The position numbers and the translations under genes are program-made. Positions 15,794 through 43,801 of a DNA stretch of 64,000 nt are shown in pieces. The notes beneath the pieces are model-generated. The model was not told the origin of the DNA. It saw only the letters and a program-made list of their open reading frames with translations, and ran no database searches. The stretch is from Halomonas sp. 1513 (GTDB taxonomy: Bacteria; Pseudomonadota; Gammaproteobacteria; Pseudomonadales; Halomonadaceae): NCBI GenBank assembly GCA_001971685.1, contig CP019326.1, forward strand, positions 1,302,001 to 1,366,000. The letters run 5' to 3'. How positions within the stretch are numbered: the stretch's first letter is position 1; every line of letters starts with the position of its first letter.

Positions 15794-15865
15794 GGGTGAC
15801 TCCTTGCGGTCTGCAATGACGTTGGGGCGATGATGGCATACTCCCACCGCGCGCGGCGAGCGGCC

Positions 15866-16894
15866 TCAGTCGCCGTCCGCCTCCAGCGAGGCGAGGATAC
15901 GACGATAGCTGGCAAACCGCTGCGGATGGATGTCGCCGCGGGCGACGGCGGCCAGCAGCGCGCAGCCGGGCTCCTCGCGGTGGCGACAGTCGCGAAAGCG
16001 GCAGCGACCGAGATAGTCGCGGAACTCGATGAAGCCCTCGGCGACCTGCTCGGCGTCGAGGTGAATGAGGCCGAACTCACGGATGCCCGGCGAGTCGATC
16101 AGCTCGCCGCCGGCGGGTAGGTGGTAGAGCATCGCCGTGGTGGTGGTGTGAGTGCCCTTGCGCGAGTCCTCGGAGAGCGCGCCGATGCGCAGCGCATGAT
16201 CGGGCAGCAGGCAGTCGATCAGCGACGACTTGCCGACCCCGCTCTGGCCGACGAACACCGAGGTGCGGCCGGTCAGGCGCTGGTGCAGGGCGTCGAGCCC
16301 GCCCTCGCGCTTGGCGCTGGCCAGCACCACCGGGTAGCCCAGCGCCTCGTAGCGGCCCAGCAGGTCGCGCAGCTCGCCACCCTGCTCCGGCAGCAGGTCG
16401 ACCTTGTTGAGCACCAGGGCCGGGGCGATGCCGGTGGCCTCGGCGGCGATCAGGTAGCGGTCGATCAGGTTGGCATGGGGCTCGGGTTCGGCGGCGAACA
16501 CGATCAGGATCTGGTCGAGATTGGCCGCCACTGGCTTGAGCTGGCCGCGGGCGTCGGGGCGCTCGAGGACGCTGTCGCGCTCGCCGCGGGCCACCACCAC
16601 GCCGCTGCCGTCGTTGGCCTGGCGCCATATCACGCGGTCGCCGGTGACCAGCCCATCCATGTTGGCGCGCATATGGCAGCGGTGGCGGTGACGCTCGCCG
16701 CTGTCATCGACGGCCTCGACGTCGAGGCTGCGGCCGAAGTGGGCGGTCACTCTGCCCGGCTGTTCGGGGCCGAATTCGCCGGCCTCGAGGCGTTCGCCAT
16801 CGCGGGCGTCGACGCGCTCGGCGCGCTTGGCGCGTTCGGCCTGGATCTTCTCGATGCGCCAGCGCTGCTGGCGGGTCAGCTTACGTTTGCTCAT
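15866..16894 (-). CDS. rsgA: ribosome small subunit-dependent GTPase A
   Basis: A late 30S maturation factor, 342 residues. Order: basic N-terminal extension, OB fold, circularly permuted GTPase with NKVD at 163-166 preceding the P-loop GQSGVGKS at 216-223, then a zinc-binding C-terminus with the pattern C...C.H..(6)C in [14 protein letters not shown]. The frame stays open far upstream, but [12 protein letters not shown] at 16894 is the family start and has AAGG five bases before it. It is divergent from orn across 54 bases that contain a perfect palindrome, the usual rsgA/orn arrangement of gammaproteobacteria. Confidence 0.96.
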
Positions 16895-18647: not shown

Positions 18648-18735
18648 GATGGAAAGACGATGAAGGCTGAGTGGATGGGCGCAAGGGCGCATCACCTTAT
18701 ACTAGTATCAACAACACGTCATTGAGGAGCAGTCC

Positions 18736-20259
18736 ATGCAGCAGGCCCTGCGCCCCCTGTTCCGCGCCGAGCAGGTGCGCGAACTAGACCGCCGCACCAT
18801 CGCAGCGGGCATCGACGGCTTTAGCCTGATGCAGCAGGCCGCCAGCGCCGCCTTCGACGCCCTGCGCCAGCGCTGGCCGCAGGCGCGCCGGTTGAGCGTG
18901 CTGTGCGGCGCCGGCAATAACGCCGGCGACGGCTACGTGCTGGCGGCGCTGGCAGTGTGCGACGGTTTCGACGTGCAGCTGATCGCCCTGCGCGATCCCG
19001 AAAGCCTCGACGGCGACGCTGGCCGCGCCGTGGCCATGGCCCGCCGCGTCGGCCTTAAGCCGCAAGCCTGGTCTGCCGATATGCGCATTACCGGCGAGGT
19101 GGTGGTGGATGCGCTGCTGGGCACAGGCCTCAGCGGTGAGGTGCGTGAGCCCTTCGCCGCGGCCATCGCGGCCATCAACGCCAGCGAGCGGCCGGTGCTG
19201 GCCGTGGATATCCCCTCGGGGCTCTCGGCCGACAGCGGCGCGATGCTCGGCTGCGCGGTGGAGGCGACCCTGACCACCACCTTCATCGCCGACAAGCTGG
19301 GCCTGCATACCGGCGCCGCGGTGGCCCACGTCGGCGAGCATCGCCTGCTGACGCTGGGGGTGGACGCAGCGCGGCACGGCGACCTTGCCGCTGCGGCCTG
19401 GCTGCTGGATGACGCACCGGATCCGCTGCTGGCGCCAAGGCGCCGCGATAGCCACAAGGGCGATCACGGCCACCTGCTGGTGCTCGGCGGGGCGCCGGGG
19501 TTCGGCGGTGCGGCGCTGCTGGCCAGCGAGGCGGCGGCGCGGCTGGGGGCCGGCCGGGTCAGCCTGGCCACCGCGCCGGAGCATGTCACGGCGAGCCTCG
19601 TTCGCTGCCCCGAAGTGATGGTGCACGGCCTGCGCGGCCCCGCCGACCTGGCATCGCTGCTCGACGGCGCCGATGCGATAGCGGTGGGGCCGGGGCTCGG
19701 GCAGGGTGCCTGGGGGCAGGGCATGTGGCAGGCGGCGCTGGCGGCGGGCAAGCCGCTGGTGGTCGACGCCGATGCCCTCAACCTGCTGGCCGGGATGGCA
19801 TCGCCACCCCGGCGGGATGACTGGATACTCACGCCGCACCCCGGCGAGGCGGCGGGGTTGCTAGGCTGCTCGAGTCGCGAGGTACAGCACGACCGGCCTG
19901 GCGCAGTGGCCGCACTGGCCAGGCGCTACGGCGGCCAGTGGCTGCTCAAGGGTGCCGGCACTCTGGTCGGCAATGAGGCGGACCTGGCGGTGTGCCCGTT
20001 CGGCAATCCCGGCATGGCCAGCGGCGGCATGGGCGATGCGCTGAGCGGGATACTTGGCGCCCTGGTCGCGCAGTTCGGACGCGCCGGCGGCGCTGGACTG
20101 GGTGAGCTTGCCCGCTGTGCGGCGGTGCTCCACGCCCGGGCCGCCGATCTGGCTGCGGCAGACGCCGGCGAGCGTGGTCTGCTGGCCGGCGATCTGGCAT
20201 CCTATGCGCGACGATTGGCTAACCCGCGGACGAGCGATGTACGTGATACTGCCCGATGA
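18736..20259 (+). CDS. nnr: bifunctional NAD(P)HX epimerase / dehydratase
   Basis: Repairs hydrated NADH and NADPH. It has 507 residues with two domains: a YjeF_N epimerase (about 1-210, GAGNNAGDGYVLA) and an ADP/ATP-dependent dehydratase of the ribokinase fold (about 225-500). Dehydratase marks include GGAPGFGGAALL, ILTPHPGE and GMASGGMGDALSG. The start ATG at 18736 follows GAGGAG. The 3' end overlaps tsaE by 23 bases, as in many gammaproteobacteria. Confidence 0.96.
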   Translation: MQQALRPLFRAEQVRELDRRTIAAGIDGFSLMQQAASAAFDALRQRWPQARRLSVLCGAGNNAGDGYVLAALAVCDGFDVQLIALRDPESLDGDAGRAVAMARRVGLKPQAWSADMRITGEVVVDALLGTGLSGEVREPFAAAIAAINASERPVLAVDIPSGLSADSGAMLGCAVEATLTTTFIADKLGLHTGAAVAHVGEHRLLTLGVDAARHGDLAAAAWLLDDAPDPLLAPRRRDSHKGDHGHLLVLGGAPGFGGAALLASEAAARLGAGRVSLATAPEHVTASLVRCPEVMVHGLRGPADLASLLDGADAIAVGPGLGQGAWGQGMWQAALAAGKPLVVDADALNLLAGMASPPRRDDWILTPHPGEAAGLLGCSSREVQHDRPGAVAALARRYGGQWLLKGAGTLVGNEADLAVCPFGNPGMASGGMGDALSGILGALVAQFGRAGGAGLGELARCAAVLHARAADLAAADAGERGLLAGDLASYARRLANPRTSDVRDTAR

Positions 20260-25462: not shown

Positions 25463-25708
25463 ATGTCCAAAGGGCAGTCCCTCCAAGACCCGTACCTGAA
25501 CATTCTGCGCAAGGAGCGCATTCCGGTATCGATTTTCTTGGTCAATGGCATCAAGCTGCAGGGCCAGATCGAATCTTTCGATCAGTTCGTGATTCTGCTG
25601 CGCAATACCGTTAGCCAGATGGTTTACAAGCACGCTATCTCGACGGTGGTACCGTCGCGTAACGTGCGTCTGCCGGCCCAGGATCCTGCGGCGGCACAAG
25701 AGAGTTGA
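25463..25708 (+). CDS. hfq: RNA-binding protein Hfq
   Basis: The hexameric Sm-like RNA chaperone for small RNA regulation, 81 residues. Sm1 and Sm2 cores are intact: [34 protein letters not shown] and the [12 protein letters not shown] end. The start ATG at 25463 follows AGGGAG. It is 122 bases after miaA and 14 bases before hflX. The acidic C-terminal tail is short, as in Pseudomonas. Confidence 0.98.
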
Positions 25709-25722
25709 TCGCGAGGTAGTGA

Positions 25723-27039
25723 TTGTTTTTTGAACGTCCCGACGCCGGTGAAACGGCGATACTCGTCCATATCGATTTCCAGGACGAACAGGAGCGCGAA
25801 GATTCCGGCGAGTTTCTGGAACTGGTGCGCTCCGCCGGCGCCGAACCGGCTACCCTGCTGACGGGTAGCCGGCATCGGCCCGATTCTCGAACCTTCATCG
25901 GCAGCGGCAAGCTCGACGAGCTGAAGGCGCTGATGCCGATTCATCAAGCCGAGCTGGTGATCTTCAACCACTCGCTGAGCCCCTCCCAGGAACGCAACCT
26001 GGAGCGGACGCTCAAGTGCCGGGTGCTCGACCGCACCGGCCTGATTCTGGATATCTTCGCCCAACGGGCGCGGACCCACGAGGGTAAGCTGCAGGTCGAA
26101 CTGGCCCAGCTCGAGTACATGTCGACGCGCCTGGTGCGCGGCTGGACTCACCTCGAGCGTCAGAAGGGCGGTATCGGCCTGCGCGGCCCGGGTGAAACCC
26201 AGCTCGAGACCGACCGCCGCCTGCTGCGCGGGCGCATCAAGTCGATTCACAAGCGCCTCGACAAGGTGCGCAGCCAGCGCGAGCAGAATCGTCGCGCCCG
26301 GGCACGCGCCGAGATTCCCAGCGTGTCGCTGGTGGGTTATACCAATGCCGGCAAGTCGACGCTGTTCAACGCCGTGACCGAGGCTTCGGTGTACGCCGCG
26401 GATCAGCTGTTCGCGACCCTCGACCCGACCCTGCGACGTCTCGAGGTACAAGACGTTGGTCCAGTGGTACTGGCCGATACGGTGGGGTTTATTCGTCACC
26501 TGCCGCACAAACTGGTCGAGGCGTTTCGTGCCACCTTGCAGGAGGCCGCCGAGGCCAGCCTGCTGGTCCACGTGATCGACGCCGCCGACCCCGACCGCGA
26601 TCTCAACGTCGAGCAGGTGCAGCGGGTCTTGCAGGAGATCGGTGCCGATGAGGTACCCTGCCTGCTGGTGATGAACAAGATCGATCTGCTCGACAGCGCG
26701 CCGCGCATCGAGCGCGACGGCGAGGGGCGTCCCGAGGCGGTGTGGCTGTCGGCGCAGCAGGGCCTGGGGCTCGAGCTGCTGGCCGAGGCGCTCTCCGAGT
26801 GCCTGGCCGACGACGTCATCGACATCGCCCTGACGCTGACGCCGGCGCAGGGTAAGCTGCGTGCCGGGCTGCATGAGCTCGGAGCAGTGCGTGACGAGCA
26901 GTTCGACGAGGGTGGCTGTAGCCAGCTCGAGGTGCGCCTGCCGCGCCGCGACTTCCTGCAGCTGATGGCGCGCCTGGGTGAGCGTGCCGACGATTACCTG
27001 CCCGTTGAAGAGCGCAGCCGTCCGGTCTGGGAGGCCTGA
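25723..27039 (+). CDS. hflX: ribosome-associated GTPase HflX
   Basis: A heat-inducible ribosome-splitting and rescue GTPase of 438 residues. The N-terminal HflX domain shows TFIGSGKLDEL and FNHSLSPSQERNLE; the glycine-rich GIGLRGPGETQLETDRR follows; then the G domain with GYTNAGKST, DTVGFI and NKID. The start is TTG at 25723, with GCGAGGT upstream; reading MFFERPDAGE it lines up with the E. coli start, and no in-frame ATG or GTG is better. The rare start may hold expression down relative to hfq. Confidence 0.95.
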   Translation: MFFERPDAGETAILVHIDFQDEQEREDSGEFLELVRSAGAEPATLLTGSRHRPDSRTFIGSGKLDELKALMPIHQAELVIFNHSLSPSQERNLERTLKCRVLDRTGLILDIFAQRARTHEGKLQVELAQLEYMSTRLVRGWTHLERQKGGIGLRGPGETQLETDRRLLRGRIKSIHKRLDKVRSQREQNRRARARAEIPSVSLVGYTNAGKSTLFNAVTEASVYAADQLFATLDPTLRRLEVQDVGPVVLADTVGFIRHLPHKLVEAFRATLQEAAEASLLVHVIDAADPDRDLNVEQVQRVLQEIGADEVPCLLVMNKIDLLDSAPRIERDGEGRPEAVWLSAQQGLGLELLAEALSECLADDVIDIALTLTPAQGKLRAGLHELGAVRDEQFDEGGCSQLEVRLPRRDFLQLMARLGERADDYLPVEERSRPVWEA

Positions 27040-27110
27040 CGGCTGACGCTTCGGCGGGCCAACGCGTCGCCGTGCCGACGCACGCGATAGCGCAACCGAT
27101 GCTGTTGCCG

Positions 27111-27135
27111 TACCGGACGGCGGTGATGTCCGGTA
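27111..27135 (+). other. hairpin in the hflX-hflK gap
   Basis: Perfect 8-bp arms TACCGGAC (27111-27118) and GTCCGGTA (27128-27135) around nine bases, within the 131-base gap. No T run follows. It may be a processing or stability element separating hflX from hflKC. Confidence 0.45.
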
Positions 27136-27170
27136 TCGCATGAGTGATCAACGCATAGTGGAGACGACGT

Positions 27171-29303: not shown

Positions 29304-29370
29304 GGCCCCGGGGTTCACCCCGGGGCCAAACGTGGTAGAATCCGCAAACCGGGCGTGGCCCGGTTTTTTT
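29304..29370 (+). terminator. GC palindrome plus intrinsic terminator after hflC
   Basis: First a perfect 10-bp palindrome GGCCCCGGGG with TTCA loop (29304-29327), no T run. Then AAACCGGGC (29346-29354) pairing with GCCCGGTTT (29358-29366), loop GTG, followed by seven T (29364-29370): a classic intrinsic terminator. Between them, TGGTAGAAT (29332-29340) looks like an extended -10 box, so a short terminated leader for hisZ is an alternative reading. Confidence 0.8.
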
Positions 29371-29395
29371 GTGCATTCGTGGCAGGACAGGACAC

Positions 29396-30577
29396 ATGAC
29401 CATCGCTGACCGCTGGCTGCTTCCCGACGGCATGGACGAAGTGCTGCCGCCGCAGGCGGCCCGCATGGAGGAGCTGCGCCGTGCGCTGCTCGACCTCTAT
29501 TACCGCTGGGGGTATGACCAGGTAATGCCGCCGCCGGTGGAGTTTCTCGACTCGCTGCTGACCGGCACCGGCACCGACCTCGACCTGCAGACCTTCAAGC
29601 TCACCGACCAGCTCACCGGGCGGATGATGGGCGTCAGCGCCGACGTCACCCCCCAGGTGGCGCGCATGGACGCTCACTCGCTGCGCCGCCAGGGGCCGGT
29701 GCGGCTGTGCTACTGCACCAACGTGCTGCGCGCCAAGGCCGACCAGCATCAGGGCGGGCGCAGCCCGGTGCAGGTCGGCGTCGAGCTGTTCGGTCACGCC
29801 GGCCAGGAGGCCGACCTGGAGATCCTGCGTCTGGCACTGTCGAGCCTGGCGGTGGCCGGCGCCGATGAAATTCACCTGGCACTCGGCCATATCGGCATCT
29901 ACCGTAGTCTGGTGCAGGCCGCTGAACTCGATGCCACCCAGGAGCGAGCGCTGTATGAGGCGCTGGATCTCAAGTCGCCGGGGGACCTCGCGGCGCGGGT
30001 CGCGGAGTGCGTCAGCGACCCGACCCTGGCCGAGATGTTCCTGGCGCTGGCCGAGCTGCACGGCGGCGACGAGGTGCTCGAGGCGGCGCGCGGCGCCTTC
30101 GCCGAGGCGCCGGCCGCGGTCAATGCGGCCCTCGACCAGCTGCTGGCGCTGAGCGCCGGGGTGCGCGCCGAGTATCCCGAGGTCGAGCTCTATTTCGATC
30201 TCGCCGAGCTGCGCGGCTATCAGTACCACACCGGCATGATGTTCGCCGCCTATGTGCCGGGCTACGGCCAGGCGCTGGCCAAGGGCGGGCGCTATGACGA
30301 TACCGGGCGCGCCTTCGGGCGCGCCCGGCCGGCCACCGGGTTCTCCATGGACCTCAAGCTGCTGGCCTCGCTGGCACTGCAGCCGCCGGCCTGCAACGGC
30401 ATCTGGGTGGCGGCCGACGCGGCCGAGCAGCAGGCGGCCACCATCGCCGCACTGCGCGACGCCGGCGAACGGGTGGTGGTGGCCTTGCCGGGGCAGCGCA
30501 CCGGCCCCGAGGCGCATCGCTGCAACCGCCAGCTGACCCGCAGCGGCGACGACTGGCAGGTGTCCCCCCTGGACTGA
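29396..30577 (+). CDS. hisZ: ATP phosphoribosyltransferase regulatory subunit
   Basis: A histidyl-tRNA synthetase-like protein that allows the short-form HisG to work in histidine synthesis. It is 393 residues, with the HisRS core (MDEVLPPQAARMEELRRALLDLY at the N-terminus, broken here by family variation, and SVDVTPQVARMDAHSLR-like motif 2). There is no anticodon-binding domain, and the class II active-site residues needed for aminoacylation are diverged. The ATG at 29396 gives MTIADRWLLPDG, the usual start. hisZ next to purA is common in Pseudomonas and Halomonas; hisG is elsewhere. Confidence 0.94.
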   Translation: MTIADRWLLPDGMDEVLPPQAARMEELRRALLDLYYRWGYDQVMPPPVEFLDSLLTGTGTDLDLQTFKLTDQLTGRMMGVSADVTPQVARMDAHSLRRQGPVRLCYCTNVLRAKADQHQGGRSPVQVGVELFGHAGQEADLEILRLALSSLAVAGADEIHLALGHIGIYRSLVQAAELDATQERALYEALDLKSPGDLAARVAECVSDPTLAEMFLALAELHGGDEVLEAARGAFAEAPAAVNAALDQLLALSAGVRAEYPEVELYFDLAELRGYQYHTGMMFAAYVPGYGQALAKGGRYDDTGRAFGRARPATGFSMDLKLLASLALQPPACNGIWVAADAAEQQAATIAALRDAGERVVVALPGQRTGPEAHRCNRQLTRSGDDWQVSPLD

Positions 30578-31921
<1,344 letters not shown>

Positions 31922-31950
31922 TATTGCCAGTGCCGAGTGCGCGCGACACG

Positions 31951-31980
31951 CAAAGCGCCGCCCCCAGGGGCGGCGCTTTG
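31951..31980. terminator. bidirectional terminator between purA and the exopolysaccharide operon
   Basis: A 14-bp perfect inverted repeat (31951-31964 with 31967-31980, outer bases CAAAGCGCCGCC) lies between the convergent purA and Sel1-repeat genes. The A/T ends give short T runs on both strands. Confidence 0.8.
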
Positions 31981-31999
31981 CGTTGTGGCGGCGCGATGC

Positions 32000-34534
32000 T
32001 TACTGGATCGCCGCCGACAGGTCGCGGCTGCCGATGACGTCTCGTGCACTATCTTCGGTGAGCAGCTGGCGCAGGGTCTGGGAGGCCAGTTGGCTATCGC
32101 CTTCGATCACACCCTCGAGCCAGATCAGCGCCTGCTCGTTGTTGGCGCCCTCCAGGCCGTTGGCCGCCAGGTAGGCTTCGGCCAGCGCCAGGCGCGCACT
32201 TTCATGGCCCTGCTCGGCGGCGGCCAGCAGCAGGTCGCTGCCGCGCTCGGCGTCGTAGGCCAGCACCTCGCCGCGCAGGTACTCGCGGCCCAGCACCGCC
32301 TGGGCGCCGGGGTGGCCGTCGTCCACCGCGTCCTGCAGGTAGTCGAGGCCGCGCTGGGTGTCCTGGGGCAGGCCCTCGTCGCCGTGCAGGTAGGCCTGGC
32401 CGAGGTGCAGGCGCGCGCCGCTATGGCCGGCGTCGGCCGCTTGCGTGAGCAGCTGCATGCCGCGCTCTGGGTCGTCGCCGGAGTCGATCAGCAGTTCGCC
32501 CAGGTCGGCCTGGGCACCGCCGTGGCCGCCGGCCACGGCGCGCTCCAGGTAGTCGCGGGCAGCGGCTTCGTCGCCGGCCTCGAGCTGCAGGCGGCCGAGG
32601 CTCGCCGAGGCACCGGGATGACCGGCGCGGTCGGCGCGCTGCAGCCAGGCGCGGGCCTGGTCGGCGTTGGCCGCCACCCCTTGGCCCTCGAGGTAGGCGC
32701 GGCCGAGATCGGCCATGGCCCCGGGGTGGCCCTCTTCGGCGGCGCTGACCAGCGCTTCGATATCCCCCGCGGCACCCAGGTCGCGCTGGGTGTACATCAG
32801 CGCATCGCCGGCCGATTCGTGGCCGGCATCCTCGGCCTGGCGCAGCCAGTAGGCGGAGCGCTGCAGGTCGCGCTCGACGCCGTCGCCATGGCGATAGGCG
32901 CGGCCCATCACCAGCATGGCGTAATCGTCACCCTGGCGAGCGGCGTCCTCGAGCAGGTCGATGCCCCACTCGGGCTGCAGCTCGCCCTCGATCCCTTCCA
33001 GGTACGCCTCGCCGAGCACTGCCATGGCGGTGGTGTCGCCGGCCTCGATGGCCTCGCGCAGCAGGCGCTCGCCGCGCGACGGGTGATAGTCGAGAGTCTC
33101 GCCCTCCAGGTAGGCCTCGCCGAGCAGCCGCTTGGCGCTGGCCTGGCCCTGGCGTGCCGCCTCGCGCAGCAGTGTCTCGGCCTGGCGCGGGTTGCCGGCC
33201 ACGCCGCGCCCCTCGAGATAGACCTCGCCGAGCTGCATGGTGGCGTAGGGGTGGCCGAGTTCGTGGCCGCGCTGCAGGTAGTCGACGGCCTGCAGCGGCT
33301 GCGAGGGCAGGTGCTCGTCGCTGAGGTAGAGCTCGCCGAGCAGCGCCAGGGCGAAGCCGTCGTCCTGGTCGGCTGCCTGCTCGAGCAGGGCTACGGCCTG
33401 CTGGGGGTCACCGGCGACGCCGTTGCCGTCGAGGTAGGCGCGGGCCAGGCTGACCGCGGCATCGGCCGAGCCGCGCTCGGCGGCGCGTTCGAGCCAGGCG
33501 ATGCCCTGGCCGTCGTGGGCCGAACGCTGCAGCAGGTGGTCGCCGAGCAGCGCCATGGCGTCGACATCGCCGTGGCCGGCGGCGGTCTCCAGCAGGCTGA
33601 TGGCCTGGGCCTCGTCGCCGCTCTCGAGCAGCAGGCGCGCGGCCTGGGTCTGGGCGCCGGGCTCGCCGGACTCCGCCGCCGCCAGCAGCCAGTCGAGGCG
33701 CTGCTGCGGGTCGCCCTCGAGCAGACCATCGTCCCCATGCAGGCGAGCCAAACGCTGCATGGCGCCGGTATCGCCGGCTTCTGCCTCAGCCTGGAGCCCG
33801 GCGGCGGCCTGCTCGGCGTACTGCCGGGAGCGCTCGGGGTCGTCGACCAGCCAGCCGTCGGCGCGATAGGCCTCGGCCAGGGCCAGCTGGGCGCGCTCAT
33901 CGCCACGTTCGGCGGCGCGCTGATAGAGGCGCCGGGCCAGCCGGGGGTCGGCCTGGACGCCGTCGCCGCCCTCGACCATCAGTTCCGCCAGGGTGATCTC
34001 GGCGTCGCGCTCGACCTCTTCGTCGATAGCCTGCCACAGCAAGTAGTAGGCCAGGGCGTCGTTGCGCGCCACGCCGTCACCCTCGAGATAGAGCTTGGCC
34101 AGGTTGAGCGAGGCGTGGCCGCGGGAGGAGGACGGCAGCTCCAGCGCCTCGGCGTAGTGGCGCGCGGCCTCGGCGGTGTCACGCTCGACCCCGAGGCCGT
34201 TCTCGTACATCCGCCCCATGTGGTAGGACGCCGGCGGGAAGCCGAGGTTGATCATCTGGCGCAGCTGATCCTGGGCGCGGGCGTAGTCGCCCTCCTCGAT
34301 GAGCTGCTGGGCGTAGTTGATGCGGCTCCAGTCGTCGCCGCTCATGTCGGCCTCGACGTTACCCTCGAACCAGTGGCTGTACTGTGCGGGCAGGGCGGTG
34401 GCGTGGTTTTCCCCCGGCGGCGTGCCGCCTGAACTGGCGCACCCGGCTAGGCTGACCAGCAGGACCAGGCCGGCACAGGCGGACAGCTGCTGCCGTGAGG
34501 TGACGAAGCGGCGTGAGTCGTGTGGTCGTAGCAT
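32000..34534 (-). CDS. very long Sel1-repeat lipoprotein, AlgK-like
   Basis: An 844-residue protein. A lipobox LAGC puts the lipidated cysteine at residue 32; the +2 residue is Ala, so outer-membrane sorting is expected. From about residue 85 to the end it is a solenoid of roughly twenty Sel1/TPR-like repeats of about 36 residues, with recurring units like GDGVERD, AAERGDERAQLALAEAY and GHPGAMADLGRAYLEGQGV. AlgK, the alginate lipoprotein that binds AlgX and the AlgE porin, has the same plan but about 475 residues and nine to ten repeats. As the last gene of the ugd-alg8-alg44 operon, it is probably the periplasmic scaffold of the export complex. The doubled length and absence of AlgE nearby are unusual. 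A general Sel1 lipoprotein without export role is the alternative. Confidence 0.85.
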   Translation of the reverse strand: MLRPHDSRRFVTSRQQLSACAGLVLLVSLAGCASSGGTPPGENHATALPAQYSHWFEGNVEADMSGDDWSRINYAQQLIEEGDYARAQDQLRQMINLGFPPASYHMGRMYENGLGVERDTAEAARHYAEALELPSSSRGHASLNLAKLYLEGDGVARNDALAYYLLWQAIDEEVERDAEITLAELMVEGGDGVQADPRLARRLYQRAAERGDERAQLALAEAYRADGWLVDDPERSRQYAEQAAAGLQAEAEAGDTGAMQRLARLHGDDGLLEGDPQQRLDWLLAAAESGEPGAQTQAARLLLESGDEAQAISLLETAAGHGDVDAMALLGDHLLQRSAHDGQGIAWLERAAERGSADAAVSLARAYLDGNGVAGDPQQAVALLEQAADQDDGFALALLGELYLSDEHLPSQPLQAVDYLQRGHELGHPYATMQLGEVYLEGRGVAGNPRQAETLLREAARQGQASAKRLLGEAYLEGETLDYHPSRGERLLREAIEAGDTTAMAVLGEAYLEGIEGELQPEWGIDLLEDAARQGDDYAMLVMGRAYRHGDGVERDLQRSAYWLRQAEDAGHESAGDALMYTQRDLGAAGDIEALVSAAEEGHPGAMADLGRAYLEGQGVAANADQARAWLQRADRAGHPGASASLGRLQLEAGDEAAARDYLERAVAGGHGGAQADLGELLIDSGDDPERGMQLLTQAADAGHSGARLHLGQAYLHGDEGLPQDTQRGLDYLQDAVDDGHPGAQAVLGREYLRGEVLAYDAERGSDLLLAAAEQGHESARLALAEAYLAANGLEGANNEQALIWLEGVIEGDSQLASQTLRQLLTEDSARDVIGSRDLSAAIQ

Positions 34535-34568
34535 GGTGGATTCCTTCCCGTGTGAGGTTGGGCGACGC

Positions 34569-35825
34569 TCAGCGTGCCGCCAGGCCGTCGAAACCTTGGG
34601 TGGCCGGGGCGTCGTCGTCGATGATGACCTGCTGCTGCGTCTCGGGTGGCATGACGTAGAGCGTCATGTAGCCACCGGCGCTGCGGTTGTAGAGTGGACG
34701 CAGGTGCGGCAGGAAGTCGGCGATGCGCGGATCGTCGAAGCGGGTCTGGTAGAGCTCCATCCAGACGAAGTACTGCGGGTCCTGGAGGAAGCCGGTGTAC
34801 TGCTCGAGGGGCACGTCCTCGCCGAGGTTGGTCGGGTCGTCAATGGCACGCATGGCGAAATCGACCGCGTCGTGGATGTCGCGACCGTCGATTTCGAGGG
34901 CATGGATGTCGTACCCCTGGCGAGCGACCACCTCCATGATCGGAATCAGGTAGAGCAGGGCGTAGTTCTGGTAGTGGGTGGCGCGACGGCCACGGGCCAC
35001 TTCCAGCGGCAGGGCGCCCTCTTCGGTGAGGTCATGGAGCGCCGAGTAGACGGCGCTGACGCCGACCTGGAACAGCTCGTCGTCCTCCAGCAGCACGCCG
35101 ACCATCGCCGCGTAGAGCGCCCGGCGGTAGAAGTGGTTATTGCAGCAGCTGTTGCCCTCCTCGCCGGGGATGCTGATATGCCGGTCACTGAGGCGCTTGA
35201 GCCACTCTTCGACGTCCGCCTGCTCCTGCTCGCGTCCTTCGACGTGGGGACGTACCACCGAGTAGGCCATGGCCGCGGCGAAGATCATCGACTCGGTGGC
35301 GAACCACGCCTGGGGCTCCATCGATTCGTAGTGGAACTCCATCAGCGCATCGTTGACCGCCCAGCGTTCGAGGAAGCGCACCAGGCAGTCGGCGTAGTAG
35401 TCGTCTCCAGTGGCGACGAAGCTGCCGGCCAGCTGCGACACGCTGTCTTCGAACTGGAACAGCGGCTCCGAGGCGAGCTGCCACTCCTCGGGGTTGGGGT
35501 AGTAGCCCGGTACTCGTAGTCGGGTGGTGATCGGCGGAATGCTCAGCAGCTGCTGGCAACTGGTGCCGGTGGCGAGTTCGTCGAGCTCTTGCAGCAGCAT
35601 GGCGTTATGGGTGTCGTCGAGTAGTGCCATGCGCGCCTCGACGTCGAAATAGCCGGCGTCGCGATCGGTGACGGTGTAGTCGGAGAGATCCAGGGCCTCG
35701 CGCTCGGCAGTGGTCAATGCATGGGCGCTCGATGCCACGACCAGCAGCGCGGCGCCAGCCAGCCCGGCGAGTGCCGAACGTCGAGCGGGGAGCGATAGGG
35801 CGAGAGTCGACAGCATCGGCATCAT
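34569..35825 (-). CDS. AlgL-like polysaccharide lyase (PL5 type)
   Basis: An exported protein of 418 residues; signal peptide to about residue 36 (LLVVASSAHA, then LTTAER). The (alpha/alpha) toroid fold of PL5 alginate lyases is suggested by repeated helical segments. The catalytic quartet is conserved: Asn230-His231 in CCNNHFYRR, and Arg281 with Tyr288 in RATHYQNYA, the same seven-residue spacing as in family PL5. In alginate producers AlgL clears polymer that strays into the periplasm. Here it may do so for a GlcA polymer. Three ATGs stand near an AGGAG box (35825, 35822, 35816), so the exact start is open; the first overlaps the preceding stop. Family is well supported; substrate is not known. 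Confidence 0.85.
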   Translation of the reverse strand: MMPMLSTLALSLPARRSALAGLAGAALLVVASSAHALTTAEREALDLSDYTVTDRDAGYFDVEARMALLDDTHNAMLLQELDELATGTSCQQLLSIPPITTRLRVPGYYPNPEEWQLASEPLFQFEDSVSQLAGSFVATGDDYYADCLVRFLERWAVNDALMEFHYESMEPQAWFATESMIFAAAMAYSVVRPHVEGREQEQADVEEWLKRLSDRHISIPGEEGNSCCNNHFYRRALYAAMVGVLLEDDELFQVGVSAVYSALHDLTEEGALPLEVARGRRATHYQNYALLYLIPIMEVVARQGYDIHALEIDGRDIHDAVDFAMRAIDDPTNLGEDVPLEQYTGFLQDPQYFVWMELYQTRFDDPRIADFLPHLRPLYNRSAGGYMTLYVMPPETQQQVIIDDDAPATQGFDGLAAR

Positions 35826-36718
35826 GCTCCTGGCACATACAGGCGGAAGTCACCGAAGTCGGCGTGCTGGTCGCGGGGCGTGCGCCAACCCTCGCCGTGG
35901 CCGCCGAAGAAGCTCGAGAACATCACTCCCTCGATGCCAACCCGTTCGCTGGTGCGATAGACGATGCCGTGCTGCTCGAGCACCGGCTCGCCGTCGATCC
36001 ACACCCGGGCGACGCCGTCGTCGCGGTCGGGGTGATTGAGCACCACCTCCTGCTCGACGGTGACCCAGCGGTCGGTGGGGAAGTGCCACAGGCCGCGGCC
36101 CACCGAGGCGCCGTGATCCTCGTCCTGATTGACCACGTACTCATAGAGCTCGCCCTGGCCCTGCTCGCGCCACATGAAGCGCATCGAGAAGCCGTTGTCA
36201 CCGTCGGCGGCCTCGCCACCGCTGGGTCCGTCGCCGCCGTAGAGCCCCGGCAGCTTGCCGCCGCGCACGAAGTCGAAGTCCTCGGCGAAGCGCACCTGAT
36301 AGCGCAGGCAGGCGCGGTCGGCGTCGGCGAGGCCGGCGTCTTGGGTATAGAAGCCGGCGCCGCCCTGGCCGCGACCGTTGCCGTCATCGCCGGGGGAGGA
36401 GGTGCCGGCCGGGTAGTGCACGCGCAGCACCGGCTGGTCGAGACCGCTTTCGCCCGGGGCCAGCACCTCGACGTTGTGCTCGGTGCCCCAGTCGCGCTGG
36501 GTATCGAAGCCGCGGCGTACCGCTTGCTTGGGGGTGGTGGCATCGCTGTCCGGGCGGTGGTGGGCGACCTCGCTGTAGCGCGCCGAGCAGCCCTGCGAAG
36601 TCGGAATACTCAAGGCGTCATCGACGTCGTCGGCGGCCAGCGGCAGTGTCGCCATCAGCGCAGTGGCGGCCAGCGCAGCGCCGATGGGCCATGGACGGGG
36701 GGCAAACATCGCCATCAT
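35822..36718 (-). CDS. secreted polysaccharide lyase-like protein (PL14-type jelly roll)
   Basis: A 298-residue exported protein. The signal peptide lies in the first 27 residues (PIGAALAATALMATLPLA). The mature domain has the beta-jelly-roll motifs of PL14-like lyases: CLRYQVRFAEDFDFVRGGKL minus edges, the KLPGLYGG turn, GFSMRFMWR and a Tyr/His-bearing strand before the WVTVEQEVVLN segment. PL14 members cut alginate or beta-1,4-glucuronan. AGGAGAG five bases upstream decides the ATG at 36718; the open frame continues further upstream. The start overlaps the alg44-like stop by one base (TGATG). Assignment to PL14 is by remembered motif resemblance, so a general carbohydrate-active jelly roll is the fallback. 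Confidence 0.68.
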   Translation of the reverse strand: MMAMFAPRPWPIGAALAATALMATLPLAADDVDDALSIPTSQGCSARYSEVAHHRPDSDATTPKQAVRRGFDTQRDWGTEHNVEVLAPGESGLDQPVLRVHYPAGTSSPGDDGNGRGQGGAGFYTQDAGLADADRACLRYQVRFAEDFDFVRGGKLPGLYGGDGPSGGEAADGDNGFSMRFMWREQGQGELYEYVVNQDEDHGASVGRGLWHFPTDRWVTVEQEVVLNHPDRDDGVARVWIDGEPVLEQHGIVYRTSERVGIEGVMFSSFFGGHGEGWRTPRDQHADFGDFRLYVPGA

Positions 36719-38307
36719 CAACTCTCCTGGGCTTGCTCGGGGGTATCGTCTGCGTCGCCTTGCGCCGCCTGATAGAGGCGCTCGACGAACTGCGCCACGG
36801 CGCGACCGCCCTGCCAGACCCACTCGGCGCCAGCGGCCAATACCGGCTGCTCGGTGAAGCGCACGTCGACCGGCTGGCCCACGGCATCCGCCGGCAGGTC
36901 GGTCTCGGGCACCAGCAGCACGCTGGCCACGTTCTGCTGCTGACGCACCCAGTCCGGGAAGCCGGCGCGCGGCTGGCGCTCGACGTCCAGCGCCACGCTG
37001 CGGACCTGGGCGCGAATCGGTTCCGAGGCGTGGGGCAGGGCGACGTAGGCAACCTGTTCGGGTTCGATGCGCGCGATATCGCTCATGTGCACCAGCGCCT
37101 CGACCATCACGTCGTCCTCGCCGGTGCGAATCAGCGTCATGATGCGTTCGCTCTCGTTGATGTAGGTGCCGTCGGCGCTGGATAGCGCCCAGGCCACCAG
37201 GCAGTCGCAGGGGCTTGAGATCTCGTTCATCGACATGCGTGACTGCAGCGCGCTGATCCGCGAGCTCTCGTAGTCGCGAGTGGTCTCGAACTGCTCGACC
37301 CGCGCCTGGGCGATCTCCGGCGAGGCGGTCTCGTAGTTGACGGTGTCGCCGCTGGCCGGCTGGGTCGAGTTGACCAGACTGACCTGTTGGGCGTTGGGGT
37401 CGTCGAGGCTGGCCTGGAGGTTGTCGATCAGCTGCGAGTTGTAGCGGTGCGAGGCCTGGGCCAGTATCAGGTCGGACTCGAGGTCGCTGTTGTTGACGCC
37501 GGTCAGGTACTCGTCGCGTTCGACGCGGTCACCGGCCTCCCACTGGTGCTCGCGGAGGATCCCCGCCCCGGGGGCGCGGATGTCGATGCGCGGCGCGGTG
37601 ACTGCAGCGAAGCTCGGCTCGATGAGCATGAAGTTGCGGTAGGCGGTGGCGGCCGCGGCGATCACCAGTACCCCGGCGGCGGCAAACAGCAGCGCGTAGC
37701 GGCCCCATGGTTTGGGTGGCCGCCCCGGCGGGGTCGGGCCGCTGGTCTGCTGGCGCTTACGCGGGGTCTGCGGGTCCTCCTCGCTGACCAGCCGCTCGAT
37801 GCTGGCATGCCGGCCGCTAAGGTGGGCGCGCACCACCTGGCGCAGCAGCTCGAGGTGGGGCGGGTCGATGGCGACGATCTGGAACGCCAGCTTATGGTCG
37901 CCGTGCTCCCCGAACGGATGGCAGCGCAGGCAGCGCGCCTGTAGCGGAATGATCAACTCGGCGCCGCCGGCTTCGACCAGCAGGCTGGCGTCGACCAGGC
38001 TGTCGATGGCCAGGGTAGTGTCGGCATGAGCGGCGAAACCACCCAGCGACAGGTCCAGCCCGCCCAGACGGCGTCCATCGGCCAGCTCGACCTGGAACGG
38101 CGGTGAGATGCGCACGTGCTGACGCTCGTCGCGGCGCTCGTGGCGCAGCGATGCGTCGGCACGGGTCGCCTCGCGGTAAGCACGCGGCTCGCTCATATGG
38201 CCGTTGCGCTCGCCATCGCGTGCGCTTGGGCCATCGTCCAGGTAGCGACGTCGAGCGCCGAGGGTGGGTTCACTTCGATCGTGGTGACCGGGAGATCGTG
38301 GGTCCAT
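36718..38307 (-). CDS. Alg44-like c-di-GMP-binding polysaccharide synthesis protein (PilZ + HlyD-like)
   Basis: A 529-residue protein with the Alg44 plan: an N-terminal PilZ domain (about 55-165) with RQHVR at 62-66 and DLSLGG at 85-90, the two c-di-GMP-binding motifs; one transmembrane segment (about 204-222); and a periplasmic HlyD/membrane-fusion-like part (about 235-500). Alg44 binds c-di-GMP and activates the Alg8 polymerase. The AAGGAG nine bases before the ATG at 38307 supports the longer start over MSEPRAYR at 38196. It follows the alg8-like gene by 37 bases. Both PilZ motifs being intact suggests the polymer is under c-di-GMP control. Confidence 0.9.
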   Translation of the reverse strand: MDPRSPGHHDRSEPTLGARRRYLDDGPSARDGERNGHMSEPRAYREATRADASLRHERRDERQHVRISPPFQVELADGRRLGGLDLSLGGFAAHADTTLAIDSLVDASLLVEAGGAELIIPLQARCLRCHPFGEHGDHKLAFQIVAIDPPHLELLRQVVRAHLSGRHASIERLVSEEDPQTPRKRQQTSGPTPPGRPPKPWGRYALLFAAAGVLVIAAAATAYRNFMLIEPSFAAVTAPRIDIRAPGAGILREHQWEAGDRVERDEYLTGVNNSDLESDLILAQASHRYNSQLIDNLQASLDDPNAQQVSLVNSTQPASGDTVNYETASPEIAQARVEQFETTRDYESSRISALQSRMSMNEISSPCDCLVAWALSSADGTYINESERIMTLIRTGEDDVMVEALVHMSDIARIEPEQVAYVALPHASEPIRAQVRSVALDVERQPRAGFPDWVRQQQNVASVLLVPETDLPADAVGQPVDVRFTEQPVLAAGAEWVWQGGRAVAQFVERLYQAAQGDADDTPEQAQES

Positions 38308-38344
38308 GTGACAGACTCCTTGAAAGCGCGAATCGGGGCGGACG

Positions 38345-39916
38345 TCAGCGGCCGTTGAGGCCGCCGCCGTCCTGGAAGATGTTCAGCGACACGGCATCCG
38401 GCGGGGCCAGCACGCCGGTGGCCAGCACCAGCACGAACAGCAGGCTGGCCAGGTAGACGCCGTGCATGAAGTGACCCATGTGGCGCTGGCGGCGTGCCGC
38501 GCGCAGGCTCGTCGGCTCGCCGGCGGAGATGCCCTGGCGCGACCACTTCTGACGATTGAAGCGGAAGCTAACGTAGGTCTTGAGCAGGGCGCCGCCGATC
38601 TGGTTGTAGTAGAGCAGTGGCACCCACAGCAGGCTGAAGCGCCCGCGCTGCCAGGCCAGGATCAGCGCGGCGATACTGCGCGTGAACAGGATCCACAGCA
38701 GGTAGGCGAAGATGAACGACGGGCGCACGAAGGCGGTCACCAGGATCGCCACCGTCGGTCCCACTAGCGTGGTCCACATCGACAAGCGCTGATCGACCAG
38801 GCTCCACCAGGTGAACAGCCCCATCGGCCGTGGCCCCAGGGCGATGGCGCGATTGCTGGTACGCAGCATGTTGCCGTACCAGCGGCGCATCAGGTCGAGG
38901 GTCGAGGCGAAGAAGCGCCGCCGGTCGGGGAGCTCCTCGAACCCCGAGACGTAGACGTCGGGCAGGTAGCGCATCTTCCAGCGGCGCTGCAGCAGCCAGT
39001 ACCAGGTCGACTTGTCGTCGCCTGACAGGAACTTGAAGTTGCCGAAGCGCCAGTGCTCGACGTGGTCGTGCTCGACCAGCTCGATGAAGCTCGGCAGGGT
39101 CGCCAGCTCGGCACGAAACACGCTGTAGCGGCCGGTCAGTACCAGTAGGCGCTGTGACAGCGACATCGAACTCATCACCAGATGGCGCTGGGCGTAGCGC
39201 AGGTCGTACCACTCCTTGGTGGCGTCGCCGCCGGTGACGATGGCGTTGTTGTTGGTGGTCAGGGCGCCGAGATCATCCTGCAGCGCAAAGAACGGCAGCG
39301 AGCGAGACAGGGTGCCGGGCTCGAGGCGGATGTCGCCGTCCATCGATACCAGCAGGGCGTCCGGCGCCGGCATGCAGCGCGAGATGGCGCGCAGCACTTC
39401 GGCCATCGCCGAGCGCTTGCCATCGCCCTTCTGGAACATGTAGCGCACCTCGACGTTGGCCGGCCAACCGTGCTCGTCGAGCACATGGTCGATCACATCG
39501 ACATCGCTGCGATCGGAGATCGCGGCAAAGATGACAGTGGGTACGCCATAGTCGCGGACCTCGCCAATCAGCGCATCGTAGACCGCGAAGTTGACCTCCG
39601 GCTCGATGCGGTAGGAGGTGCACAGCACGTACAGCTCGCTGGGCTTGGCCGCGGTCCCTATGGCATCCGCTTCGGCGCGCAGCCGGGGAAAGACCTGGCG
39701 GTTGTACCACACCGAGCGCAGTGCCTGGACGAGCCACCAGGAGTAGCGCCAGATACCGATGGCACCGATCACGAAGAAGAAGCTCTGCGACTCCGGCGAG
39801 AAGATGTCGCGCGGCAGTTCGCTGATCAGCACCACCAGCAGCGTCAATCCGAACAGCAGCACGGTGACCTCCGTCGCCCAGCTGGCGACGGAGGGTTTGG
39901 GACGTTTCGCTTGCAT
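38345..39916 (-). CDS. Alg8-like processive glycosyltransferase (GT2)
   Basis: An inner-membrane polymerase of 523 residues. Two N-terminal membrane helices (about 17-33 and 45-65) precede a cytoplasmic GT2 domain with the DGD metal motif at 193-195, GDD at 299-301 and Q-RR-W at 310-313, the marks of processive synthases. At least three further membrane segments follow (for example WTTLVGPTVAILVTAFV). Layout and length fit Alg8 (494 residues in Pseudomonas) better than cellulose synthase BcsA, since PilZ is in a separate protein. GGAG six bases before the ATG at 39916 sets the start. The neighbour upstream is ugd (8-base gap), so UDP-glucuronate is the likely donor instead of GDP-mannuronate. 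That is inference. Confidence 0.9.
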   Translation of the reverse strand: MQAKRPKPSVASWATEVTVLLFGLTLLVVLISELPRDIFSPESQSFFFVIGAIGIWRYSWWLVQALRSVWYNRQVFPRLRAEADAIGTAAKPSELYVLCTSYRIEPEVNFAVYDALIGEVRDYGVPTVIFAAISDRSDVDVIDHVLDEHGWPANVEVRYMFQKGDGKRSAMAEVLRAISRCMPAPDALLVSMDGDIRLEPGTLSRSLPFFALQDDLGALTTNNNAIVTGGDATKEWYDLRYAQRHLVMSSMSLSQRLLVLTGRYSVFRAELATLPSFIELVEHDHVEHWRFGNFKFLSGDDKSTWYWLLQRRWKMRYLPDVYVSGFEELPDRRRFFASTLDLMRRWYGNMLRTSNRAIALGPRPMGLFTWWSLVDQRLSMWTTLVGPTVAILVTAFVRPSFIFAYLLWILFTRSIAALILAWQRGRFSLLWVPLLYYNQIGGALLKTYVSFRFNRQKWSRQGISAGEPTSLRAARRQRHMGHFMHGVYLASLLFVLVLATGVLAPPDAVSLNIFQDGGGLNGR

Positions 39917-39924
39917 GCCGACTC

Positions 39925-41271
39925 CTAGGCCAGGGCGGCCTGCAGTGAGTCGCCGCGCCCGATGGCGTAGTAGTCGAGGCCGGCCTGCTTGACGCTGGCC
40001 GGCTCGAACAGGTTGCGGCCATCGATGACGATGGGGCTGGCCAGCGTCTGCTTGAGCATGGCGAAGTCGATGCTGCGAAAGGCCTTCCACTCGGTGCAGA
40101 TGACCAGCGCGTCGGCGCCCTCCAGCGCTTCGTCGCGACGCTGGCACAGCGCCAGATCATCACGCTCGCCGTAGAGGCGCCGGCACTCGTCCTGGGCCTC
40201 GGGATCGTAGGCCTGCACTCGCGCTCCGGCGGCCCACAGCGACGCCATCAGCGCGCGGCTCGGGGCTTCGCGCATATCGTCGGTGTTGGGCTTGAAGGCC
40301 AGCCCCCACAGGGCGATGGTCTTGCCCGCCAGGTCGCCGTTAAAGGCGCGTTCCAGCTTAGCGAACAGCTGGTCTTTTTGGCGCAGGTTGATCGACTCCA
40401 CCGCTTCGAGCAGCTGCGGCGGGTGGCCGACTTCATGGGCGGTGCGCGCCAGTGCCTGGACGTCCTTGGGGAAGCACGAGCCGCCGTAGCCGCAGCCGGG
40501 ATAGATGAAGTGGTGGCCGATGCGTGGATCGCTGCCGATGCCGTGACGCACGTGCTCGATGTCGGCCCCCAGCTTCTCGGCCAGGTTGGCGATCTCGTTG
40601 ATGAAGCTGATCTTGGTGGCCAGCATCGCGTTGGCGGCGTACTTGGTCAGCTCGGCGCTGCGTACGTCCATGAAGATCAGCTTGTCATGCAGACGGCTGT
40701 AGGGCGCGTAGCATTCGCGCATGGCCTGGCGCACGCGGTCGCTGTCGGTGCCGACGACGATCCGCGCGCCGCGCGAGAAGTCCTCGATGGCCGCCCCCTC
40801 CTTGAGAAACTCCGGATTGGAGCAGACATCGAAGGCCAGCGTGGCGCCACGTTCGGCGAGGGTCTCGGCCACACAGGCGCTGACCTTCTCGGCGGTGCCT
40901 ACCGGGACCGTCGACTTGTCGACGATGACCTTGTACTCGCGCATATGGGTGGCGATGGTGCGGGCCACCTGCAGCACGTACTGCAGGTCGGCGCTGCCGT
41001 CCTCGTCGGGGGGCGTGCCGACGGCGATGAACTGCAGCATTCCGAACTCTACCGCCCGGGCGGCGTCGGTGGTGAAGCGCAGTCGGCCGGCATCCAGATT
41101 ATGACGGATGATGGTCTCCAGGCCCGGCTCGTGAATCGGCACCTGGCCGTCATTGAGGGCGGCGATCTTGTCGCTGTCGATGTCGACGCAGATGACGTCG
41201 TGGCCAACATCGGCCAGGCAGGCGCCGGTGACCAGGCCCACGTAGCCTGAGCCAAAGATGGTAATCCGCAT
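39925..41271 (-). CDS. ugd: UDP-glucose 6-dehydrogenase
   Basis: Oxidises UDP-glucose to UDP-glucuronate with two NAD. It has 448 residues: N-terminal Rossmann domain ([18 protein letters not shown] at 7-24), central helix, and the catalytic Cys266 in [10 protein letters not shown], with the C-terminal UDP-binding domain ([15 protein letters not shown]). The sequence follows Ugd rather than AlgD: AlgD proteins open GLGYVGAVCAGCLS. It is first in the operon; AAGGAGCG precedes the ATG. The enzyme may also serve other cell-surface glycans, but its tight linkage to the alg8-like gene points to a dedicated role here. Confidence 0.93.
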
Positions 41272-41751
41272 GAGTGACGCTCCTTGCTTGTCGGCTCTTC
41301 CATGGCGTGCGTGCTGTGAGCGGAAGATAGCGTGATAAAACCCTCTGGCCGGCCGCTTGCCCTCTCATCCATGGGGCATTCACGGCCGGCGAGATTCCAG
41401 TGAACACCCCCACGGGTTGCGCAAATCGTGCCAGGTGATTTTTTATCCGTTTAATAACAGCAATTTATTAGATTTTTTGCGTGCACATGTCGGCGCTGCT
41501 GCTTGCCGATCAGCGCCTGCTGTGTCGGTGCTCGGCAACGCCTTGTCGCCTATGGAAAAAAATATGACATGAAATCAATCGGTTAAGAATGTCTCTTCGG
41601 GGGGACACCGGGCTGTCGTCACGATGTGCCGCGCGGCGGGAGGCGGCGGATACGAGGTAGAGTCTAAATGTGAATAATTAGCATTATTGGTGGAAACGGT
41701 TGCGATCATGCCGACATCCTGCCGTCGAAGGTAAGGAAATGTGCAGGGTGC
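41272..41751. promoter_or_regulatory. AT-rich divergent intergenic region between ugd and the suf operon
   Basis: About 480 bases without a gene. It includes the most AT-rich patch of the window (about 41438-41485, TTTTTTATCC and AATTTATTAGA), a candidate sigma-54 promoter toward ugd (41417-41434), and further AT-rich segments near 41660-41690 (GAATAATTAGCATTATT). The patch is a likely site for bending proteins or activators such as AlgR/AmrZ-type regulators, though no specific site can be named. Confidence 0.55.
41417..41434 (-). promoter_or_regulatory. ugd: candidate sigma-54 promoter for the exopolysaccharide operon
   Basis: On the minus strand CTGGCACG (41434-41427) matches the -24 element fully. 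The GC of the -12 element is at 41420-41419, exactly 12 bases after the GG, but the preceding TT is replaced by GC. Transcription would start near 41407, leaving a leader of about 136 bases. Alginate algD promoters also use RpoN in some conditions. One mismatched element keeps this tentative. Confidence 0.35.
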
Positions 41752-41785
41752 TTCACATCGGAGTTATACAGGACTAAAATGGTCC
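41752..41785 (+). promoter_or_regulatory. suf promoter with IscR/SufR-type operator
   Basis: TTCACA (41752-41757), 17 bases, then TAAAAT (41775-41780) form a good sigma-70 promoter. Overlapping the -10 is GGACTAAAATGGTCC (41771-41785), which fits the core of the IscR type-1 site (GACTRWWWYAGTC) with one mismatch and is an imperfect palindrome. The first downstream gene is an Rrf2 regulator with three cysteines, so cluster-dependent autorepression is expected. Confidence 0.75.
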
Positions 41786-41830
41786 CCAATCCGAGCCGCC
41801 CACTGGCCACGACCCTCGAGGATGTGCCGC

Positions 41831-42298
41831 ATGCTCAAGCTCTCACGCATGACCGACTATGCCGCCGTGGTGATGGCGCACATTGCGCGCCACCCGCAGC
41901 AGCCGCATGCAGCGACCGAGCTGGCCGACGCCGTCCACCTGCCGCACCCGACGGTGAGCAAGACCCTCAAGTCGCTGGTGCGTGCCGGATTGCTGGTCTC
42001 CCAGCGCGGGGCCCAGGGCGGTTACCGGCTGGCGCGAGAGGCCAGCGAGATCACCGCCAGCGATATCATCGCGGCCATCGAAGGCCCGGTGGCGATGACC
42101 GAATGCAGTCATGCCGACGGCGACTGCGATCTGGTCGCCACCTGCGGGGTCGCCGACAACTGGCAGCGCGTGTCGCTCGCCGTGCGCACCCTGCTCGACA
42201 GCGTGACCCTGGCGCACCTGGCTCAGGCCACGCCGATCAAGCTGCCGGTGCAGCTGCCGATTCAGACCGTAACGCTGGCCGCTGGCGCCAGCCGCTAA
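41831..42298 (+). CDS. Rrf2-family SUF system regulator
   Basis: A 155-residue winged-helix repressor of the Rrf2 family, close to IscR and to the SUF-associated type found in gammaproteobacteria with a suf operon. The DNA-binding helix-turn-helix is at about 24-60 (LADAVHLPHPTVSKTLKSLV) and Cys92, Cys99 and Cys105 are placed to hold a 2Fe-2S cluster. GAGG eight bases upstream favours the ATG at 41831 (MLKLSRMTDY) over 41822. It leads sufBCDS-sufT and probably represses its own promoter when clusters are abundant. Confidence 0.92.
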   Translation: MLKLSRMTDYAAVVMAHIARHPQQPHAATELADAVHLPHPTVSKTLKSLVRAGLLVSQRGAQGGYRLAREASEITASDIIAAIEGPVAMTECSHADGDCDLVATCGVADNWQRVSLAVRTLLDSVTLAHLAQATPIKLPVQLPIQTVTLAAGASR

Positions 42299-42358
42299 TC
42301 CTACAAATGTTCATGTTGAGCTAGCTGCTCGACGGCAACGCCCGGGAGGGGATTGAAC

Positions 42359-43801
<1,443 letters not shown>

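Follow-up and report, generated by a model that had tools for sequence, protein, structure and literature searches.

Bacterial glucuronan is known from Sinorhizobium meliloti M5N1CS, for which, to our knowledge, no synthase operon of the kind considered here has been described. Hyaluronan synthase builds a mixed chain of N-acetylglucosamine (GlcNAc) and glucuronic acid (GlcA), and we know of no Alg44 and no lyases in the has operon. The Pseudomonas alginate operon has the order algD-8-44-K-E-G-X-L-I-J-F-A (PMC13296017). A six-gene minus-strand operon at 32000-41271 of a 64,000-nucleotide stretch of Halomonas sp. 1513 (contig CP019326.1, positions 1,302,001 to 1,366,000; hereafter the window), part of a 4.13 Mb single-contig Halomonadaceae genome, has in common with it a family 2 glycosyltransferase (GT2) polymerase with a PilZ/HlyD partner, a polysaccharide lyase of family 5 (PL5), a Sel1/TPR lipoprotein and a nucleotide-sugar dehydrogenase as the first gene. 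Unlike the Pseudomonas operon, it has the UDP-glucose dehydrogenase Ugd in place of AlgD, does not include AlgE, G, X, I, J and F, adds a lyase of family 14 (PL14) and encodes a polymerase that falls in a separate clade. The operon is real and conserved, a variant of the Alg8/Alg44 systems that most likely serves as a polyglucuronate system.

The operon has its own Ugd and the genome yielded no enzyme for making mannuronate, so the product is probably a GlcA polymer. Coordinates and family matches (window proteins were scanned with Pfam and NCBIfam) agree with the order ugd, alg8, alg44, PL14, PL5, Sel1 lipoprotein that an earlier note on this DNA had read from its letters, together with gaps of 8 to 37 bases or overlaps; the computed spacings range from -4 to 37 (8, 37, -1, -4 and 34 bases, from ugd to the Sel1 gene). 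The note was also right to call the first gene Ugd rather than AlgD and to single out Cys266: the catalytic loop GGSC(266)FPKDV has the Ugd form, TIGR03026 is matched at 469 bits, and the best solved relative is the UDP-glucose dehydrogenase 2y0e at 601 bits, as against 208 bits for the GDP-mannose dehydrogenase AlgD (1mfz).

The linkage of Ugd to the polymerase recurs across relatives. Loci were compared, at an E-value of 1e-5, with the window proteins and with twelve proteins from the Pseudomonas-type alginate operon of L091; ten of these twelve were scanned, AlgK, AlgG, AlgA and AlgL passing their specific NCBIfam cut-offs and the rest being named by operon place. Among the named loci, i.e., the best 80 of 442 relatives, Ugd lies within the alg8 cluster in 74, a count that leaves aside repeat genomes of L044, L009 and L063 (L131-L133) and L103, where Ugd is not adjacent. 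It precedes alg8 by 12 to 671 bases in 72 of the 80, the ugd-alg8-alg44 order for which the earlier note had proposed a survey, and follows alg44 in two. Alg44, PL14 and PL5 are present in all 74 Ugd-linked loci and Sel1 in 73 (L024 ends before it), and AlgD, A, G, X, I, J, F, E or K is the best match to no place in any of them. The six named loci with no linked Ugd comprise five in which a contig end cuts one flank of alg8 at 1.5 kb or less (L041, L073, L074, L084, L085) and L077, which has several kb on both flanks, yet no Ugd. A further 44 stretches include 28 that are AlgD-linked, 12 with neither dehydrogenase and four with Ugd (the three repeats and L103); PL14 is the best match to no place in the 28 AlgD-linked loci.

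Two Alphaproteobacteria, Caenispirillum and Thalassobaculum, carry the whole operon in the order alg8-alg44-ugd-PL14-PL5-Sel1. The Caenispirillum Alg8 nests in Halomonadaceae (75% identical), and its Ugd is only 43% identical to the window protein and groups with the Thalassobaculum Ugd (98/90). These comparisons show the operon to have housed Ugd of two lineages, at two positions, a pattern that would be difficult to account for if UDP-GlcA were not what the polymerase requires.

The rest of the genome offers little sign of the alternative donor. Five NDP-sugar dehydrogenases are present, the operon Ugd included, and none is AlgD-like: the other four are 67%, 64% (close Ugd copies), 38% and 23% identical to the operon Ugd, all are at most 34% identical to any AlgD, and a tree of 39 rows, 18 of them AlgD, places all five outside the AlgD rows, two of the five on very long branches. 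AlgE (PF13372) has no match in the genome in a search that gave a match in one control genome, and neither does AlgG (NF038177), whose model finds the L091 AlgG at 1030 bits. The first control genomes in the search for AlgX/AlgJ (PF16822) were all negative, and it was therefore rerun on two Pseudomonas-type genomes, both of which gave matches, and on four congeners, which like this genome gave none. AlgI and AlgF, sought in the loci only, are the best match to no place in the 74 Ugd-linked named loci. An AlgA/ManC-type GMP_PMI gene does lie at 1.06 Mb (673 bits). The absence of AlgA, AlgG, AlgX, AlgI/J/F and AlgE asserted in the earlier note thus stands for the operon, whereas for the genome it fails as to AlgA; the genome search for algA, algD and algE that the note called for yielded one AlgA-type gene alone, and the complete GDP-mannuronate pathway with AlgE, which it held would overturn its reading, was not found. 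GDP-mannuronate production in this genome is unlikely, because an AlgD-like dehydrogenase is missing and AlgE, AlgX and AlgG are unmatched.

The window Alg8 is 43% identical over 451 residues to a Pseudomonas-type Alg8, and its nearest named relatives (94-95%) are from Halomonas salipaludis, Halomonas socia, Halomonas sp. ML-15 and Franzmannia pantelleriensis. In a tree of 63 rows the Ugd-linked polymerases split from the AlgD-linked ones with support of 98/93; the deep order of the tree is unsure because of several long branches and 16 unlabelled rows. Of 123 conserved positions, 16 distinguish the two groups, seven of these lying in residues 130-176, and N223/E and V259/T are fixed within each group (29 and 16 rows). 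A sequence search for a solved Alg8 gave no match at E-values up to 1. The nearest solved folds of the window protein are hyaluronan synthases; since a Pseudomonas-type Alg8 control gives the same nearest folds, the fold does not discriminate and was dropped as evidence. The length of the protein beyond the WxRQGIS motif varies: at least 138 residues follow it in 65 of the 75 Ugd-linked Alg8 reading frames with a recognisable motif (L131-L133 repeats counted), and only 58-87 in those nearest to the window protein and in a few more. This C-terminal extension matches no Pfam family in the four relatives scanned and, by eye, resembles the start of a beta-helix.

The PL5 lyase keeps the catalytic Asn-His and Tyr; its His and Tyr are the residues altered in entries 4f10 and 4f13 of the alginate lyase A1-III and match H168 and Y222 of Smlt1473 from Stenotrophomonas maltophilia K279a, whose catalytic residues are N167, H168 and Y222 (PMC8511899). 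The two proteins align at 111 bits and have an LPLExARGxRAxHY segment in common. His284 occupies the position of Smlt1473 H221. The equivalent residue is His in 87 of the 88 rows for PL5 enzymes of this type (one row is masked; L077, L084 and L120 are included, and second copies are counted separately), but in no AlgL row out of 21. In Smlt1473, H221F raises activity on polymannuronate, and changes at entry-site residues other than R312 lead to loss of activity on polyglucuronate (PMC8511899). The enzyme cleaves poly-beta-D-GlcA at pH 7, as well as hyaluronan and alginate (PMC8511899), and is termed poly-GlcA specific elsewhere (PMC4765187). The likeness lies in the PL5 family and His221; the available portion of the Smlt1473 report describes no polymerase operon with it (PMC8511899).

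Among solved relatives, the PL14 protein matches the Aplysia alginate lyase 5gmt at 101 bits and chlorovirus vAL-1 at 24 bits, which are of the same family by sequence, with the difference that they are assayed alginate lyases from a degradative rather than biosynthetic setting. Its GGKLPG, SxR and YxY motifs are conserved in 79-82 of 84 rows, and their Lys, Ser/Arg and Tyr presumably have the roles familiar from this family. The vAL-1 structure has GlcA bound (PMC9614988, PMC3764139), there as a stand-in ligand for mannuronate and guluronate (PMC9614988).

The Alg44-like protein is 21% identical over 370 residues to the Pseudomonas-type Alg44. The PilZ/HlyD make-up proposed earlier is borne out by an HlyD_3 match (Table 1) and by an RxxxR ... 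DxSxGG motif that aligns with the Pseudomonas-type protein, though the PilZ part has no Pfam match. The motif is kept in the 16 Halomonadaceae rows shown (the window included), Caenispirillum and Thalassobaculum, is masked in L077 and is missing in L084 and L120, and therefore control by cyclic di-GMP (c-di-GMP) may be lost in some relatives. The Alg44-like protein would act as a c-di-GMP sensor and co-polymerase.

These features suggest a polyuronate system akin to the alginate machinery in which the donor has been switched from GDP-mannuronate to UDP-glucuronate. Judging by its family, Ugd would oxidise UDP-glucose to UDP-GlcA; homology and conserved motifs predict that the Alg8-like GT2 polymerises GlcA and drives the chain through its own membrane channel, and that the PilZ domain of its Alg44-like partner gates the polymerase by c-di-GMP. 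The product would most likely be a beta-1,4-glucuronan, a wording in which both the linkage and the homopolymer status are predictions, and the PL5 and PL14 lyases may trim or clear it in the periplasm. The Sel1 lipoprotein would fill the scaffold role of AlgK; the operon itself encodes no outer-membrane exit. A c-di-GMP-gated synthase that polymerises UDP-glucuronate into an unepimerised, unacetylated glucuronan is, on balance, likely. The earlier note had envisaged a homopolymer of GlcA, or a related uronan, free of epimerisation and acetylation; Ugd linkage and the lack of AlgD, AlgE, AlgG and AlgX support its product class, a GlcA-based uronan, and do not reach to every detail.

The main rival, though an unlikely one, is a mixed polymer of GlcA and a second sugar (e.g., glucose or GlcNAc), as made by hyaluronan synthase; the type 3 pneumococcal synthase is another maker of a mixed GlcA polymer. 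The closest solved folds of Alg8 fit this explanation, but the Pseudomonas-type protein, expected to use a single sugar, has identical ones. Hyaluronan synthase has a linked UDP-glucose dehydrogenase, HasB (PMC4443731), and Smlt1473, the PL5 relative, cleaves hyaluronan too (PMC8511899), but the known substrates of PL5 and PL14 are mainly polyuronates. A galU-like nucleotidyltransferase (listed at 8560-9471) precedes alg8 in L120, a relative that belongs to another class and has no linked Ugd; the window operon itself has no gene for a second precursor, though UDP-glucose and UDP-GlcNAc are general metabolites. A polymer of another uronic acid, e.g., from UDP-galacturonate made out of UDP-GlcA by an unlinked epimerase, is decidedly less probable: the genome carries further sugar-nucleotide genes, but no epimerase is found among the six genes or the scanned or recognised recurrent neighbour families of 76 loci, to which the epimerase search was confined.

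It is very unlikely that Ugd is linked needlessly, or for another glycan, to a polymerase that uses an unrelated donor, e.g., UDP-glucose. Two more close Ugd copies in the genome and the relatives without a linked Ugd would allow it, but the linkage is kept across the 74 named loci and was remade with a second Ugd lineage, and the operon includes two uronate-type lyases; the earlier note's own counter-scenario, Ugd serving only another glycan, is made improbable by the same linkage. An alginate (polymannuronate) operon, with the lost AlgD replaced by an unrecognised distant enzyme or by Ugd acting on GDP-mannose, is highly improbable. Some database entries do name these proteins mannuronan synthase or Alg8, the GMP_PMI gene could supply GDP-mannose, and both lyase families include alginate lyases. 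A1-III, moreover, is the nearest solved PL5 (158 bits versus 111 for Smlt1473) and likewise has the His at the H221 position, which tells against reading that residue as a mark of polyglucuronate. Against alginate stand the lack of an AlgD-like enzyme among the five dehydrogenases, the unmatched AlgE, AlgX and AlgG, the consistent Ugd linkage and the split of the Alg8 clades.

The Sel1 lipoprotein scores 110 bits against the AlgK model NF038194, below its cut-off of 700, and is 29% identical to AlgK over 93 residues; it presumably serves as a periplasmic scaffold in AlgK's place. Two minus-strand open reading frames (ORFs), 29315-31579 and 25624-27141, were considered as an AlgE-like exit and rejected: both overlap plus-strand ORFs (hisZ, 29369-30577, and 25723-27039, the latter not scanned for families), and neither matches a Pfam family. 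BcsB is not found in the genome. Two Wza-type exporters are encoded elsewhere with nothing to tie them to the operon; one, at 1.571 Mb, has two of the other dehydrogenases (1.576 and 1.596 Mb) no more than 25 kb away. A periplasmic product is conceivable because no exit gene is conserved around the 76 loci and the Wza-type exporters lie elsewhere. It is doubtful, however, that the halophile keeps a c-di-GMP-gated glucuronan in the periplasm or envelope as a polyanion, with no porin of its own and two dedicated lyases for turnover; such a polymer would be a polyuronate counterpart of the osmoregulated periplasmic glucans, not an exported slime.

The features of the locus are listed in Table 1. 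For alg8 the ATG at 39916 is preferred to a longer GTG ORF reaching 40147, and for the PL14 gene the ATG at 36718 to a GTG at 36823. A GGAG/AGGA-type ribosome site, read by eye, precedes all six starts. Both neighbours are on the plus strand: hflK-hflC-hisZ-purA up to 31921 (purA being identified by comparison with its neighbours at relatives' loci) and the suf operon, with sufB from 42353. A consensus terminator scan of 31850-42400 gave two other terminators and did not list the hairpin at 31922-31999; a sigma-70 promoter scan of the same interval gave none on the minus strand.

Table 1. Features of the Ugd-linked alg8 operon (window positions).
Feature	Coordinates	Strand	Description
ugd	39925-41271	minus	UDP-glucose 6-dehydrogenase, 448 aa; heads the operon; UDPG_MGDP_dh domains
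alg8-like	38345-39916	minus	Membrane GT2 polymerase, 523 aa; Glyco_tranf_2_3 97 bits; DGD, TGRxS, GDDKS and RRWxGN motifs
alg44-like	36718-38307	minus	529 aa; PilZ motif, hydrophobic stretch (by eye), HlyD_3 32 bits
PL14 lyase	35822-36718	minus	298 aa; Polysacc_lyase_14 PF21294 210 bits; N-terminal hydrophobic segment (by eye)
PL5 lyase (AlgL/A1-III/Smlt1473 family)	34569-35825	minus	418 aa; Alginate_lyase PF05426 127 bits; N-terminal hydrophobic segment (by eye)
Long Sel1/TPR lipoprotein	32000-34534	minus	844 aa; Sel1 195 bits; lipobox LAGC
GC hairpin, putative terminator	31922-31999	none	Strong; separates the operon's 3' end from that of purA; 78 bases folding at -52 kcal/mol, without a shuffled control

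No seventh gene is conserved around the 76 loci among the commonest neighbours checked (rarer families were not scanned). The commonest, identified by eye from the N-terminal sequences, are purA (50), hisZ (29) and suf genes (26-27); nine further neighbour proteins that were scanned (ATP-grasp, M1 peptidase, DUF454, DUF520, GNAT, HSP20, CobA, Rrf2 and BCCT) include no porin or epimerase. In some Billgrantia loci (L011, L018, L020, L036) the PL14-PL5 pair occurs a second time downstream of Sel1, where a Salinicola locus (L049) has an additional PL5-type gene (17575-18798). A 787-residue RTX/beta-helix protein follows PL5 in L120 (listed at 14239-16602). L116 holds a minimal PL14/HlyD-type/alg8 group on the minus strand (8483-12825), with no dehydrogenase match in 20 kb; its Alg8 has Glu at the N223 position, as in AlgD-linked Alg8. 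Upstream of the Caenispirillum operon (L035, 5259-8444), a divergent gene encodes a 1061-residue protein with cellulose-binding CBM2 domains (three stretches) and RTX repeats; glucuronan is structurally a C6-oxidised cellulose. A Pseudomonas-group genome (G191; L098, L107) has two AlgD-linked alginate-type loci of differing gene order, the second of which, algDA-alg8-alg44 ... algIJFXLG, is already known from Ectopseudomonas guguanensis G3 (PMC13296017).

Alg8 relatives, sought as the polymerase and not as the operon, occur in 52 of 151 sampled Halomonadaceae genomes and 11 of 24 genera, with no score below 998 bits. In wider draws, which partly overlap, the genomes with a match number 25 of 293 in the order, 10 of 369 in the class and 24 of 398 in the phylum; matches outside the family in these draws reach at most 574 bits, and all the stretches retrieved for them except L103 have either a linked AlgD or no linked dehydrogenase. 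No description of the operon as a glucuronan system was found in the open-access literature searched, and one may still exist in print; in their accessible portions, one paper treats alginate operons of Ectopseudomonas and mentions Halomonas merely as a genus (PMC13296017), and another covers Halomonas levan and a reference on oxidised xanthan (PMC4586455).

If a glucuronan is made, the database names Alg8 and mannuronan synthase mislead for these proteins, and the genetics of bacterial glucuronan would become testable in culturable type strains. The Ugd-linked and AlgD-linked Alg8 clades would then constitute a natural experiment on donor change in a processive synthase, and N223 and V259 provide a search handle for the Ugd-linked type.

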